Source of the DNA: Thiohalophilus thiocyanatoxydans
GTDB taxonomy: Bacteria; Pseudomonadota; Gammaproteobacteria; UBA6429; Thiohalophilaceae
Reading direction: 5' to 3'
Assembly (NCBI RefSeq): GCF_004366735.1
Contig: NZ_SOQX01000001.1
Span: forward strand, 1 to 64,000
DNA length: 64,000 nt
The position numbers and the translations under genes are program-made. Under the pieces are notes generated by a model that did no database searches, had not been told where the DNA came from, and worked only from the letters and a program-made list of their open reading frames with translations. This document shows, piece by piece, positions 40,155 to 47,777 of the stretch. Numbering within the stretch: position 1 is the stretch's first letter; every line of letters starts with the position of its first letter.

Positions 40155-40769
40155 TCAGTGCAGGCCGGAAATGTAGGAGGCAACCGCCTCGATTTCCCGA
40201 TCACGCATATTCGAAGCAATATCCTGCATCATCCCGTTCTGGTCGTTGGTGCGCTTGCCGTCACGAAAATCTTCCAGGGCCTTCACCAGATAATCGGTGT
40301 GCTGACCACTTAACAGTGGAAAATTCGCGGGCGGATTACCGTTACCGGTCGGACCATGACAGGCGATACAGGCACTGACGCCTCTGTCGGGATTGCCACC
40401 GCGGTAGATTTTCTCGCCCAGCTTCGCCAGTTCCTCGTCGGCCTGCCCCATGCTCACGGACTGCTCGGCATAGTAGGCACCCAGATCCGCCATATCCTGC
40501 TCACTCAGCCCGGCTACCTGACCCGCCATAATCGGATCAGAGCGGGTTTCGCCCTGTTTAAAATCCGCCAGCTGCTTGGCAGTGTAGCCGGCGTGCTGAC
40601 CCGCCAGCTTGGGGAAATCGGCATTTTTACTGTCACCTTTCTCCCCGTGACAGGCCACACAGGACTGGGCCTTGGCTTCTCCCGCCTCGGCGTCCCCGTC
40701 GGCCGCGAAAGCGGCCGACGGGGCGAACAGGGAAGCCGCGAGAATACTAACGAGCGTTGTATACTTCAT
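40155..40769 (-). CDS. Diheme cytochrome c4
   Basis: 204-aa periplasmic diheme electron carrier with a signal peptide (LVSILAASLFAPSAAFA). Two similar cytochrome domains carry CVACHGEKGDS and CIACHGPTGNG, each followed by a Met ligand region (DPIMAGQVAGLS; NGMMQDIASNM). Cytochrome c4 usually hands electrons from the bc1 complex to cbb3-type oxidase. It is followed upstream on the same strand by a cytochrome c5 gene, so c5 and c4 are probably co-transcribed. Confidence 0.92.
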   Translation of the reverse strand: MKYTTLVSILAASLFAPSAAFAADGDAEAGEAKAQSCVACHGEKGDSKNADFPKLAGQHAGYTAKQLADFKQGETRSDPIMAGQVAGLSEQDMADLGAYYAEQSVSMGQADEELAKLGEKIYRGGNPDRGVSACIACHGPTGNGNPPANFPLLSGQHTDYLVKALEDFRDGKRTNDQNGMMQDIASNMRDREIEAVASYISGLH

Positions 40770-40815: not shown

Positions 40816-41121
40816 TTACTCGACTTCAGTGAGCATGTAATCAACCGCGGCCTTAACATCCGCATCGCTCAGATCCGCACGACCGCCCTTGGCCGGCATC
40901 GCCTTGAACCCGTTGATGGCATGATCATACAGGGTGTCCTTGCCTTTCTCCAGACGATCGCCCCAGGCGCTCTTTTCCAGCTTGGGCGCGCCGGCGGCAC
41001 CGGTGCCGTGGCAGGCGAAACAGGCGTCCTGATAAACCTTCTGACCCCCGGCGGCCTGGGCAACGGAAGCCAGACCCAGCATGGCCAGTGATACGACAGT
41101 ACCCGTAATTACTTTTTTCAT
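40816..41121 (-). CDS. Cytochrome c5 (soluble, periplasmic)
   Basis: 101-aa monoheme cytochrome with a signal peptide (MKKVITGTVVSLAMLGLASVAQA), heme motif CFACHGTGAAGAPKL and Met-ligand region NGFKAMPAKGGRADLSD. It is a near twin of the domain in the membrane-anchored protein at 231-704. It is the first gene of a c5-c4 pair, divergent from engB. Confidence 0.92.
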   Translation of the reverse strand: MKKVITGTVVSLAMLGLASVAQAAGGQKVYQDACFACHGTGAAGAPKLEKSAWGDRLEKGKDTLYDHAINGFKAMPAKGGRADLSDADVKAAVDYMLTEVE

Positions 41122-41944: not shown

Positions 41945-42249
41945 AAAAAACCCCGGAACAGGGGTTGGGATGTGGGGAATTGCATCATTCCGGGGTCAAG
42001 TTCGCCCGGCATTGGGGACCGGGTCTTGAATCCCGCTCTGGGTAAAGCGGGGTCAGACGTTTACAGCCTAGTGCCTTCGACGCCCCGCCAACAGGCGGCG
42101 ATTGTGAACGTTTGTTAAATCTGTATTCCCTCTCCCGTTTCAGTTTCATTTCAGAAAACCCCGCTAGACTTTGCGTACAGTCAGCCAATCCTGCCCGGAG
42201 GGCCGCGGGAGGCGACTGCCGCACTGCCACTTCAACGGGGAGATTTGTC
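41945..42249. repeat. Intergenic repeat material before the cytochrome-porin gene
   Basis: No gene. A GGGGTCAAGTTCG / GGGGTCAGACGTTTAC direct-repeat pair lies at 41992-42063 around an inverted GGGACCGGGTCTTGAATCCC segment, a kind of dispersed repeat common in sulfur bacteria. The promoter for the next gene should lie in 42090-42230. Confidence 0.5.
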
Positions 42250-43548
42250 ATGTTCAAACGATTCCAGCTGCACACGGTGCTCGGCAGTTTGCTGCTGCTG
42301 ATCCTGTTACTACCCGAGGCGAATGCCATGCCGGTCTTCGCCCGCGATTACCAGATGTCCTGCACCACCTGCCACAGCGCCTTTCCCAGGCTGAACGAGT
42401 TCGGGGAAAGTTTTGCCGACTCCAACTTCCGCCTGCCCAACTGGAAGGACAACAGCGTGGTCACCGGCGACGACATGCTGGCCCTGGCCAAGACCCCGCC
42501 GGTGGCGTTCCGCGCCCAAGGCTTTGCCCAGGCGCGTGATGCCGAGGCGATCGATGTAGAGAGCGGCGAGACCACCGAAGTCGATACCGATTTCCAGTCG
42601 CCCTATCTGATCAAGCTGCTCTCCAGCGCGCCACTGTCGGAGCACATTACCTACTACTTTTACGCCATCTTTGCCGAGAAGGGCGGCAACGGCGAGACCA
42701 TCGTCGAGGACGCCTGGTTCTCCCACGACGCCGTGTTCGGCTCGGAGGTGGGCATGATGCTGGGCCAGTTCCAGGTCTCGGATCTGATGTTCCCGCGCGA
42801 GACCCGGCTCACCTTCCAGGACTACATGGCCTATCGCATGGCCGGGATCACCTATGACCGCGGCACCATCTTCGACACCCGCGCCGGACCGCTGGATCTG
42901 GCCGTCGGCCTGGTCAACGGCAACGGGATCAAGCAAAACGTCACCATCAACAGCCCCGGCTATCAACGCTCCGACCATATGTTCGATAACGACACGTCCA
43001 AATCGGTGTTCGGGCGCATCGGCGGCGACATCGGCCCGGTCTCGGCGGGGCTGTTCGGTTTCAGCGGCCAGCAGAAAAATGCCCTCACGGATCACGACAA
43101 TGAAATTTATGCCGGCACCGGCAGCGGCAACCGCGACACCGACAAAAACATCGTCGGCCTCGATTTCAACGGCAAACTCGGTAACAAGACCTACTGGTTC
43201 GCGCAGGCCCTGTGGAACGAATGGGACGGCTTTATCGAAGCCGACCAGACTTACGACTGGTTCGGGGGCTTTGTCGGCATCGACTACATCCACAGCCCGC
43301 GCTGGGCCCATTCGTTGCTCTACAACTACGCCGATGCCGGGGATCTGGAGAACACCGATACCATTTATGAAGGCATTGCCATGGAGACGTTGACCTACAC
43401 GGCCTCCTATTACTTCATGCGCAACGTGAAGGGGGTGATCGAGCTCAACGCCGATCTGCAGAGCGAGGTCGACAAGCGCGGCACTTACTGGACCGGCCAC
43501 CTGAGCAATGAGAATTATCTGCTGCTGGGCTTTGACGCCGCCTTCTAG
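42250..43548 (+). CDS. Cyc2-like outer-membrane cytochrome c-porin fusion
   Basis: 432-aa predicted outer-membrane protein with a signal peptide (LLLLILLLPEANA), one heme motif right after it (MPVFARDYQMSCTTCHSAFPRLNEFGESF), then about 370 residues of alternating strands such as HITYYFYAIFAEKGG, VGMMLGQFQVSDLMF and KTYWFAQALWNEW, and a terminal phenylalanine (FDAAF). A short N-terminal heme domain plugged into a monomeric porin is the Cyc2 architecture used for extracellular Fe(II) oxidation, and the FAR-x(6)-C-x2-CH-x(3)-P-x-LN-x-FG spacing matches that broad group. Whether it oxidises iron, accepts electrons from another donor or serves as a different porin-cytochrome is unknown. GGGGAG decides the ATG at 42250. 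Confidence 0.75.
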   Translation: MFKRFQLHTVLGSLLLLILLLPEANAMPVFARDYQMSCTTCHSAFPRLNEFGESFADSNFRLPNWKDNSVVTGDDMLALAKTPPVAFRAQGFAQARDAEAIDVESGETTEVDTDFQSPYLIKLLSSAPLSEHITYYFYAIFAEKGGNGETIVEDAWFSHDAVFGSEVGMMLGQFQVSDLMFPRETRLTFQDYMAYRMAGITYDRGTIFDTRAGPLDLAVGLVNGNGIKQNVTINSPGYQRSDHMFDNDTSKSVFGRIGGDIGPVSAGLFGFSGQQKNALTDHDNEIYAGTGSGNRDTDKNIVGLDFNGKLGNKTYWFAQALWNEWDGFIEADQTYDWFGGFVGIDYIHSPRWAHSLLYNYADAGDLENTDTIYEGIAMETLTYTASYYFMRNVKGVIELNADLQSEVDKRGTYWTGHLSNENYLLLGFDAAF

Positions 43549-45917: not shown

Positions 45918-47777
45918 TCAGGCGTAGTCCTGCAACAGCTGTTCAAGGCGCTGCGTAATTCGCCGCCAGCGCCCCGAATCCATCGACAGGCCGAGCAGCT
46001 CGGCGGTGAAGTGACTGGAATAGGGTGTCTCGTCCATCGGGGCCGCGGCAATGACCTCCAGCCGTTCGCGGCTGGCATGGTACTGCGCCACCAGAAAATC
46101 GATCATCGACTCGCTTAATGGCAAGCGGTACACACGGGTAATGCGCAACGCCAGATGTTCGGCGCTCTTACCCAGATCCTCCTGGACCTCTCTGACCGCG
46201 GCCGCCCCCAGCCCTGCCTTGGCATCGGCGCTGAAGCCGGTCTCCAGTCCACCCAGATACGCCGCGCGACTGCTGTAAATGGCCCGCTGGACACTGGCAT
46301 CGGCAAGCTGCACATACGGCTGCAGAATCAGGGCCAGACGAATCGCCAGACGCTTGAGATCCTCCGCCTGCAACGGCCGCCCCCCGCGCTGCAGGCCGGC
46401 CTCGCTATGTTGATAACCGAGATCCCGCAGATAGTTGCAAAACTGACGGGCAATCTCGATCTTCTGCGCATCATCCAGGACAATCGAATCCTCGCGAATG
46501 CGCAGGCCGCGGGCGCGGCGGTGCGGCAATGCAAAGCGTTTTTCTGCCGGGGAAGAGCGGCGACGTAACTCTTCCCAGCGCCGCAGATCCCGCACATAGC
46601 GTTCCCGCCATTTATGCAGCTCCTCAACGGCGCGGCGACTCTGACGCACCTGTTCCAGAATCGTTTTCAGCTGGGTCCGGTCGTCCGGCCGTCCCCGCGA
46701 CACCAGCCGTTCCAGCCCTTCGGTCAATTGCGTCAATAATGCTTCCGGCGCCAGACCGCTCACCGACTCATCAAGGCCCAGCTCCGGATAGTCCATCAGC
46801 CGGGCGGCCAGGGCATGCAAACGGCTCAGCGCCATCGCCTGACTGACACTGTAGCGACTGCGCGCCGCCTCCACCTCGTCCAGACTGCGCACCAATTGCC
46901 AACCGCCCTCGTAATCGATCACCAGCCGGGTAATCTCGCGGCCGCTGAGCAACTCGAAGACCAGCACCAGCAGCTCCTGAACATCTTCCAGTGCCATCAG
47001 ATCCAGGTTGTGCTCGTCGGCGGCGGAGAAAATGGCGCCCAGAAAGTTGTCCCGCCGCGGCACGCCGTGTTCAAAAGACGGGGCCACGCCCGTCAGACGA
47101 TCGCGCAGCAGATCGGCCTCGTCCGGCGCCGTGGCGTGAATCTTTTCCAGCGCCGCCGCCCGGGCCTCGGCGCTGGCATGGATCAGATCCTGCACCCGGC
47201 TGCGCAGGCCCAGGCGCCGGTAGATCTCGATCTGCTCGGTGATCTCGGCCAGGCTGGCATCCCCGGTCAGCTCCCGCACCGCCAGTGCCACGCTCTCGGG
47301 ACTCAGATCCAGCTCATGCAACAGCGCCCCGGCCGCACGCAGTCGCCGGGCCTCCGGCGTCAGCGCCTGCAGGACACCATCGCGACTCTCAAACAGCAGA
47401 TCCGGCAGCAAATCGAGTGTCTTGCTCAACACCTCGCGGGCATCGTCCTGGCGCCGGCCACGCAACACTATCGCCACAAAACGGGCCAGCAAACCGATCA
47501 CACCCAGGATCAGCGTATAGGCGGCAAAAAAGACAAAGTTCTCTAGCGGGGCGGCATGCCCGAAACCCAGATAATAGCCGCCCTCCATGGCCAGAAAGGT
47601 CACCGGTCCCGCCGTCCACAACAACTGCAACAGGGTCAGGCTCCAGGGCGTCTTGCGCACGCTCGACACCGCCTCGTCGATACGGCTGTGACCGACCCGC
47701 TCCAGGCTGATGCGTTCCTGATCCAGCCCGATCAGTTCATCCTCGTCTGTTTTATTTTTACGCCAGGGGAGTTTCAC
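45918..47777 (-). CDS. Unknown membrane protein with long coiled, Arg/Glu-rich cytoplasmic part
   Basis: 619-aa protein I do not recognise. A short polar N-terminus (MKLPWRKNKTDEDE) is followed by two membrane helices (LTLLQLLWTAGPVTFLAMEGGYY; FVFFAAYTLILGVIGLLARFVAIVL), then about 500 residues dominated by charged helices with heptad-like leucines, including EELHKWRERYVRDLRRWEELRRRSSPAEKR. The opening with VGHSRIDEAVSSVRKTPWSL resembles no catalytic motif known to me. It stands alone between a BCCT transporter and a dioxygenase gene. A scaffolding or envelope role is possible but unsupported. Confidence 0.75.
   Translation of the reverse strand: MKLPWRKNKTDEDELIGLDQERISLERVGHSRIDEAVSSVRKTPWSLTLLQLLWTAGPVTFLAMEGGYYLGFGHAAPLENFVFFAAYTLILGVIGLLARFVAIVLRGRRQDDAREVLSKTLDLLPDLLFESRDGVLQALTPEARRLRAAGALLHELDLSPESVALAVRELTGDASLAEITEQIEIYRRLGLRSRVQDLIHASAEARAAALEKIHATAPDEADLLRDRLTGVAPSFEHGVPRRDNFLGAIFSAADEHNLDLMALEDVQELLVLVFELLSGREITRLVIDYEGGWQLVRSLDEVEAARSRYSVSQAMALSRLHALAARLMDYPELGLDESVSGLAPEALLTQLTEGLERLVSRGRPDDRTQLKTILEQVRQSRRAVEELHKWRERYVRDLRRWEELRRRSSPAEKRFALPHRRARGLRIREDSIVLDDAQKIEIARQFCNYLRDLGYQHSEAGLQRGGRPLQAEDLKRLAIRLALILQPYVQLADASVQRAIYSSRAAYLGGLETGFSADAKAGLGAAAVREVQEDLGKSAEHLALRITRVYRLPLSESMIDFLVAQYHASRERLEVIAAAPMDETPYSSHFTAELLGLSMDSGRWRRITQRLEQLLQDYA

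Follow-up and report, generated by a model that had tools for sequence, protein, structure and literature searches.

Cyc2, in which a cytochrome segment is fused to a barrel, serves as a marker of iron oxidation. In Keffer et al. 2021 (PMC8406198) the Cyc2 signature reads AXPXFAR[Q/K][T/Y] before CXXCH and PXL after it, and OprO and OprP are named as structural templates. McAllister 2020 places Cluster 1 and Cluster 3 Cyc2 in the Zetaproteobacteria. Use of iron or of an electrode has also been inferred from cyc2 homologs, which may or may not belong to the family described here, for gammaproteobacterial sulfur oxidizers (PMC7329443) and Ca. Tenderia (PMC5371394). The gene studied here lies in a 64,000-nucleotide stretch of Thiohalophilus thiocyanatoxydans DNA, the whole of which is called the window below. 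It had been annotated initially as a cytochrome-porin fusion of Cyc2 type, and our comparisons agree with this, since the protein carries the signature, one residue off, and has structural templates in common with Cyc2.

Cytochrome segment and predicted barrel

The features of the locus, all on the forward strand, are the following.

42250..43548, + strand: gene for a Cyc2-like monoheme cytochrome-porin of 432 aa, identified as an ORF with relatives and a single match in its own genome
42250..42327, + strand: probable signal peptide, residues 1-26 (ending ...PEANA, followed by MPVFAR), read by eye from the sequence
42328..42441, + strand: putative cytochrome segment, residues 27-64, MPVFARDY-x3-CTTCH-x3-PRLN...RLPN, after the signature as defined in Keffer 2021 (PMC8406198), with D replacing Q/K
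42361..42375, + strand: heme c attachment motif CTTCH, residues 38-42, with C38, C41 and H42 invariant in 72/72 rows
42505..43542, + strand: predicted 16-strand outer-membrane barrel, residues 86-431, followed by the last residue, Phe432 (AlphaFold model; Foldseek and VIA-align porin matches)
42775..42852, + strand: loop L3, residues 176-201, VSDLMFPRETRLTFQDYMAYRMAGIT, the lowest-variation long loop of eight (mean column entropy 0.52 bits)
42090..42168, + strand: possible regulatory region upstream, made of blocks common to both same-genus copies in a side-by-side reading by eye

The reading frame opens with the ATG at 42250, just 3' to a ribosome site (GGGGAG), and runs for 432 codons to a TAG at 43546-43548. 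Past the signal peptide, as read by eye, the protein is AMPVFARDYQMSCTTCHSAFPRLN. It contains one CXXCH, the CTTCH at residues 38-42, so the single heme motif annotated right behind the signal peptide is present, and each of the 72 family members likewise has a single CXXCH. A long antisense ORF (42310-43500) was taken as a shadow of the window gene. Searches of Pfam and NCBIfam with the window protein returned no family even at E 1, and sequence searches of the PDB gave no match below E 0.26. Across 69 members, Pfam produced weak matches only: OMP_b-brl in 12 (best E 0.0034), Phage_zn_bind_3 in three, and PHP and Cytochrome_CBB3 in one each.

The window copy reads AMPVFARDY, with D at the Q/K position, and hence does not match the strict AXPXFAR[Q/K][T/Y], which is found in 45/72 members. 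PXL after CXXCH is present in the window copy (CTTCHSAFPRL) and in 72/72 members. The form screened by Keffer, PXFAR[Q/K][T/Y], occurs in 48/72 members, which therefore pass the published motif screen. When the Q/K position is left free the motif is found in 67/72, and when the first A is freed as well and S is permitted for A in FAR it is found in all 72. From these counts the family is part of a broad Cyc2-like group; the window copy itself would not pass the published screen.

An AlphaFold2 model built from alignment A1 (pLDDT 83, pTM 0.80) has 16 strands of at least 8 residues between residues 86 and 431, a count that leaves out three short strands of 3-4 residues. The best Foldseek matches were 16-strand porins, with PorB at the top. 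VIA-align placed OprP first (2o4v, Z 24.7, rmsd 3.4, 309 aligned) and OprO second (4rjw, Z 24.6), a slim lead, as Omp32, OmpC and other porins followed within one Z unit. The 16-strand barrel suggested at the outset is thus predicted, with porins as the nearest solved structures, and the 432-aa protein as modeled falls within the fused-barrel definition of Cyc2 (16 strands, OprP/OprO-like, at least 365 aa). The annotation had further described a barrel of about 370 residues ending in Phe; the final Phe is there, and the model barrel is shorter, about 347 residues. Model confidence is lowest in the cytochrome segment, where residues 38-47 fall below pLDDT 50. In a search for a distal heme ligand, the only invariant His residues across 72 members were H42 and H417. 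H417, which strand order puts in extracellular loop 8, is one candidate; two others are M180, conserved in 71/72 members, and M390, conserved in 70/72.

L3 is the constriction loop of classical porins. Its low variation, together with the conservation of lumen-side positions, would suit a redox- or gas-gated porin, whose OprP-like pore would be opened or closed by a heme plug that responds to O2, NO or the redox state. The top structural matches to OprP and OprO, by their small margin, the single heme, the mostly single-gene context and the FNR-type boxes upstream of part of the family (see below) point the same way. The difference in conservation between lumen and lipid sides is slight, however (p 0.045, with the lumen side assigned by hydrophobicity alone), and the CXXCH plus PXL motif occurs in electron-transfer cytochromes, as described in PMC8406198. 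We regard a gated porin as unlikely.

Family members, hosts and constraint

The contig scan for relatives, which detects close relatives only and so bounds the identity range by method, yielded 73 family loci, from which 72 sequences were kept after removal of fragments and duplicates. In alignment A1 (69 sequences) identity to the window protein is 52-68%, 72 columns are invariant and mean column identity is 58%; for 28 Cyc2 proteins of one family the corresponding mean is 40%. Full-length relatives at this level, with C38, C41 and H42 invariant throughout, exclude a chance ORF. Two same-genus copies, added after A1, are 88% identical to the window protein. A sample of the class gave strong relatives in 9/274 genomes, including the window's own, the other eight at 53-68%. 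The next-best matches after these eight were partial, N-terminal and 22-46% identical. The class sample thus repeats the identity gap of the contig scan.

Carriers include sulfur oxidizers, Rhodanobacter and Wenzhouxiangella. Named strains with the gene are Thiohalobacter thiocyanaticus Hrh1, Rhodanobacter lindaniclasticus DSM 17932 and Wenzhouxiangella sediminis XDB06, and many relatives come from metagenome bins labeled Gammaproteobacteria or Chromatiales. Rhodanobacter and Wenzhouxiangella are heterotrophs and are not known as iron oxidizers. For the window's own host, the annotation as a sulfur oxidizer fits the dsrA of its genome, which is full-length (618 bits) and is adjoined by a second dsr-type match; both matches are consistent with sulfur oxidation. 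No association of the family with dsrA was seen among genomes of the host's own family, dsrA being clear in 9/10 with the gene (8 above cut-off plus G445, where it is split and below) and in 20/27 lacking it (p 0.40). The 2.9 Mb window genome has one match to the window gene; no second Cyc2-like gene, no rusticyanin match and no MtrB/PioB match (PF11854) were found in it.

We compared identity to the window copy between the cytochrome-porin and EngB in 25 genomes, which were picked for carrying close relatives and so favor high cytochrome-porin identity; where EngB had two close matches in one genome the higher identity was taken. The means were 62% for the cytochrome-porin and 58% for EngB. 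In 16/25 genomes the cytochrome-porin exceeded EngB by 3 points or more and in 6/25 it fell short by 3 or more, and the two identities correlated moderately (Spearman 0.47). Constraint, horizontal transfer or both would explain the high identity relative to EngB.

In the host's own taxonomic family, none of 37 genomes holds both the family gene (10 genomes) and another Cyc2-like type (10 others); the chance of this is 0.024, not corrected for kinship and with some genomes judged on partial frames. Mutual replacement as a rule was ruled out by two of the nine class-sample carriers (G035 and G197), which also hold weaker Cyc2-like matches. One locus from the host's family (L219, genome G462) has a Cluster 1-type Cyc2 motif, FQHFPALNAFGRSFK, in place of the present family. 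A same-genus genome, G442, has two versions of an EngB-c5-c4-cytochrome-porin block that differ in identity to the window (L217 on contig C1 and L216 on C3); the block on a 40-kb contig could be contamination or could reflect true duplication.

Neighboring genes and upstream sequences

Near the window gene lie two cytochrome c genes on the opposite strand, a two-domain c4-like gene (40155-40769, -) and a c5-like gene (40816-41121, -), and also ResB/ResC genes. The same surroundings recur in few loci: EngB, c5 and c4 stand beside the gene in L216, L217 and L038, EngB and c5 in L019 and L166, and EngB alone in L164 and L168, loci with little flank. By coordinates, 3/25 genomes have EngB no more than about 12 kb from the gene. 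The pattern suggests synteny retained close to the lineage of the window, and so the c4 and c5 neighbors tell little about function. The earlier suggestion that abundant c5/c4 carriers hint at extracellular electron exchange is therefore right as to the genes nearby and weak as evidence. With mechanical ORF calls, no neighbor cluster was widely common to the family loci, and no conserved operon joined the gene to an oxidase or a periplasmic carrier. Elsewhere in the window, a 619-aa ORF (45918-47777, -) has no Pfam match at E 1e-4 and is about 86% identical over part of its length in same-genus loci.

A pattern chosen following a dyad scan of the same sequences, the FNR-type box TTGAY-N4-RTCAA, was found exactly in 8/70 family upstream regions, the window's among the 70, against 0.06 expected from shuffles (first-order Markov resamples) and 0/70 coding controls. 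Of the regions upstream of other ORFs in these loci, which were called mechanically, 8/608 had it (Fisher p 6e-5). With up to one mismatch the counts were 15/70 against 29/608 (p 8e-6). Exact boxes occur at both Rhodanobacter loci and in one Lysobacterales bin, and the boxes of Thiohalobacter and of Wenzhouxiangella sediminis each deviate at one position. At the window copy the best upstream site has three mismatches. The family upstream regions showed no enrichment of CRP, Fur-like or sigma-54 patterns, and we found no literature joining Cyc2 with FNR. The boxes point to possible use at low oxygen in part of the family. At 42040-42058, upstream of the window gene, is the stretch GGGTAAAGCGGGGTCAGAC; both same-genus copies are preceded by it as well, L216 with a single change. 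The decamer GGGGTCAGAC occurs once in the window.

An outward conduit, through which respiratory electrons are dumped on an extracellular oxidant when oxygen is scarce, would accord with FNR-type boxes in diverse members and with the presence of the gene in heterotrophic genera. The window copy lacks such a box, though, no conserved periplasmic reductase adjoins the gene, and related Cyc2 proteins serve oxidation. We consider this direction of flow quite unlikely.

Directly downstream of the gene (-100 to +27 nt), an exported-looking protein of 171-216 aa is encoded in 19 of the 73 family loci whose downstream sequence runs to 700 bases or more; these loci are not independent. Four of these proteins were scanned. 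Each begins with a weakly PEGA-like stretch (E 0.00036 to 0.14), three end in a weakly SHOCT-like one and two show a weak Ntox28 match; none of the Pfam matches is above cut-off and one PEGA match equals it. Examples are L046:1587-2186 and L039:11286-11855, with 17 others, and no Pfam model fits them clearly. Among 26 hand-picked family-carrying genomes, ten of which were known beforehand to carry the PEGA-like protein, it was found in 10, once each and beside the cytochrome-porin by coordinates, and was absent from the other 16, the window's genome included. Given this choice of genomes, the informative part is that there is no extra copy elsewhere in a genome. Our search found no on-topic literature linking Cyc2 with PEGA.

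Placement among Cyc2 groups and known systems

The family was compared with four reference sets, all derived from genomes and none including a named, tested Cyc2 protein. The set gal1 comprises 28 Cyc2 proteins of one family, that of genome G274 (Gallionellaceae); several genomes of this family have at least two Cyc2 matches (L110-L138), with three each in G318, G337 and G344, in tandem in the last two. The sets zet1 (7 proteins) and zet3 (23) were drawn almost entirely from one family, f203, which is of the same phylum and a different class, with one zet3 row coming from f223; f203 made up 65/84 genomes with a match in the search that gave them. We presume these to be Zetaproteobacteria because Cyc2 of Clusters 1 and 3 is reported from that class by McAllister 2020. 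The set c2 (16 proteins) is a rus-operon group that includes L149, where COX2, COX1, CtaA, UbiA and a rusticyanin-like gene (137 bits, below the 146.7 cut-off) are neighbors in an order close to that given for Acidihalobacter in the corresponding part of PMC10654088. Around L149 we could identify none of cup, coxC and coxD, and a cyc1-like heme gene was not seen. The fourth set, kea, consists of 9 uncharacterized Cyc2-like proteins of 379-405 aa.

With hhalign, the cytochrome end matched Gallionellaceae Cyc2 at E 1.8e-17 and the group with rus-operon Cyc2 at 4e-18. When 80 members were aligned with gal1, zet1 and c2, only 87-122 N-terminal columns were joined (E 4e-15 to 2e-20), and barrel-only comparisons with these three sets were not significant (E 0.034 to 0.13). 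Against zet3, 400 columns aligned (E 8.8e-20), the barrel alone reaching an E of 0.022, which is not significant; against kea, 328 columns aligned (E 1e-25) and the barrel alone gave E 2e-7. In barrel controls gal1 matched zet1 at E 3e-32, c2 at 1e-8 and zet3 at 0.0047. Since gal1 and zet3 are both Cyc2-like and their barrels reach only this last value, a missed barrel match is no proof of separate descent.

In a quick tree of 81 sequences, 23 of them from the 80 family members and with SH-aLRT support alone, the family forms one clade (SH-aLRT 100) with kea as its sister (94). The clade of c2, gal1 and zet1 (SH-aLRT 95) does not contain the present family, zet3 also stands apart, and within that clade gal1 and zet1 group together (99), so that the family does not fall with Cluster 1. 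AU tests did not reject joining the family with Cluster 1 (p-AU 0.131) or with the rus-operon group (p-AU 0.169). More than one order of the deep branches is therefore compatible with the data, and the standing of the family as one separate clade is clear. A position among the iron-linked Cyc2 groups was thus not borne out, the family having its own clade and only the cytochrome end aligning detectably. By sequence it is a separate, strongly conserved branch, which we do not file as Cyc2 proper. Of the annotated layout of outer-membrane Fe(II)-oxidizing cytochromes, the cytochrome-porin with a Cyc2-type segment stands, and the tie to the iron-linked groups finds no support.

The window protein is probably a Cyc2-like outer-membrane monoheme cytochrome-porin acting as an electron conduit, as judged from its motifs and model, and a working mode like that of Cyc2 would be the best reading of it. 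The protein would be exported by Sec and would receive its heme covalently, ResB/ResC being encoded nearby. Inserted with both ends periplasmic, it would have its cytochrome plug the periplasmic mouth of the barrel. A small reduced donor could then enter the lumen and pass an electron to the heme, from which it would go to a periplasmic c-type cytochrome and on to a terminal oxidase. Dissolved Fe(II) is the first candidate donor and a plausible one. Against such a conduit, a single heme cannot span the membrane alone, the poorly modeled cytochrome segment makes its placement at the mouth conjectural, there is no conserved oxidase or carrier operon, and the window copy has neither a near FNR site nor a PEGA-like partner.

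A narrower reading is a true iron oxidase that would sustain lithotrophy on Fe(II), the role proposed for the Cyc2 of Gallionellaceae and Zetaproteobacteria. The cytochrome signature and fold are common to Cyc2, and many relatives are in the gammaproteobacterial and Chromatiales bins. Against it stand the clade apart from Cluster 1 and the rus-operon groups, the undetected barrel kinship to them, the members in heterotrophic Rhodanobacter and Wenzhouxiangella, and the lack of conserved linkage to rusticyanin or oxidase genes. A further point in its favor is that cyc2, perhaps of another family than ours, was proposed to serve Fe(II) oxidation in inactive-chimney gammaproteobacterial sulfur oxidizers (PMC7329443). 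We hold a true iron oxidase to be possible, if doubtful.

Of the family members 48/72 pass the published screen, and yet the family's barrel has no detectable sequence kinship to the Cluster 1 and rus-operon barrels and the family occurs in genera not known as iron oxidizers. At issue is whether the shared heme plug signals oxidation of iron, or electron transfer at the outer membrane more broadly. A tentative proposal, which we think rather unlikely as a whole, is a distinct class of outer-membrane monoheme electron porins under tight constraint, switched by FNR/ANR at low oxygen, with a PEGA-like periplasmic partner in one branch and a non-iron extracellular electron partner in sulfur oxidizers and heterotrophs. 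If it were true, cyc2-like matches in such genomes would not be evidence for iron oxidation.

Set beside known systems, the putative conduit is closest in sequence to kea, its nearest detected relatives by barrel match and tree. It differs from them in segments, theirs being of the G(R/H).(F/Y)K..GYRF type and those of the family mostly GE.F...N(Y/F)RLPNW, and both groups stand on long stems (1.0 and 1.2 changes per column). With Cluster 1 Cyc2 (Gallionellaceae; Mariprofundus PV-1 tested) it shares the N-terminal PXFAR and PXL segment, one heme and a 16-strand fold, OprP/OprO-like in the published model. However, only 87-116 N-terminal columns align, the barrel sequence is without detectable kinship, the family forms its own clade, and the spacing from CXXCH to PXL is 4 residues in 28/28 references and 3 in the present family. 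The rus-type operon Cyc2 (Cluster 2, Acidithiobacillus type) has the same cytochrome segment and architecture, but the window gene lacks linkage to cup, cox or rus, belongs to a separate clade and has a barrel that does not align detectably. The presumed Cluster 3 Cyc2-like set, zet3, itself only presumed to be zetaproteobacterial, has a segment close to the family's, IPVFARKYGMSC..CH.MFP.L, and aligns over the 400 columns noted above, but its barrel match falls short and its clade is separate. OprP, OprO and 16-strand porins in general have the same barrel fold, at 8-15% identity in the matches listed, and are without a heme segment. Finally, MtrAB, PioAB and MtoAB place a multiheme cytochrome in an MtrB/PioB porin, whereas the window protein has one heme and 16 predicted strands.
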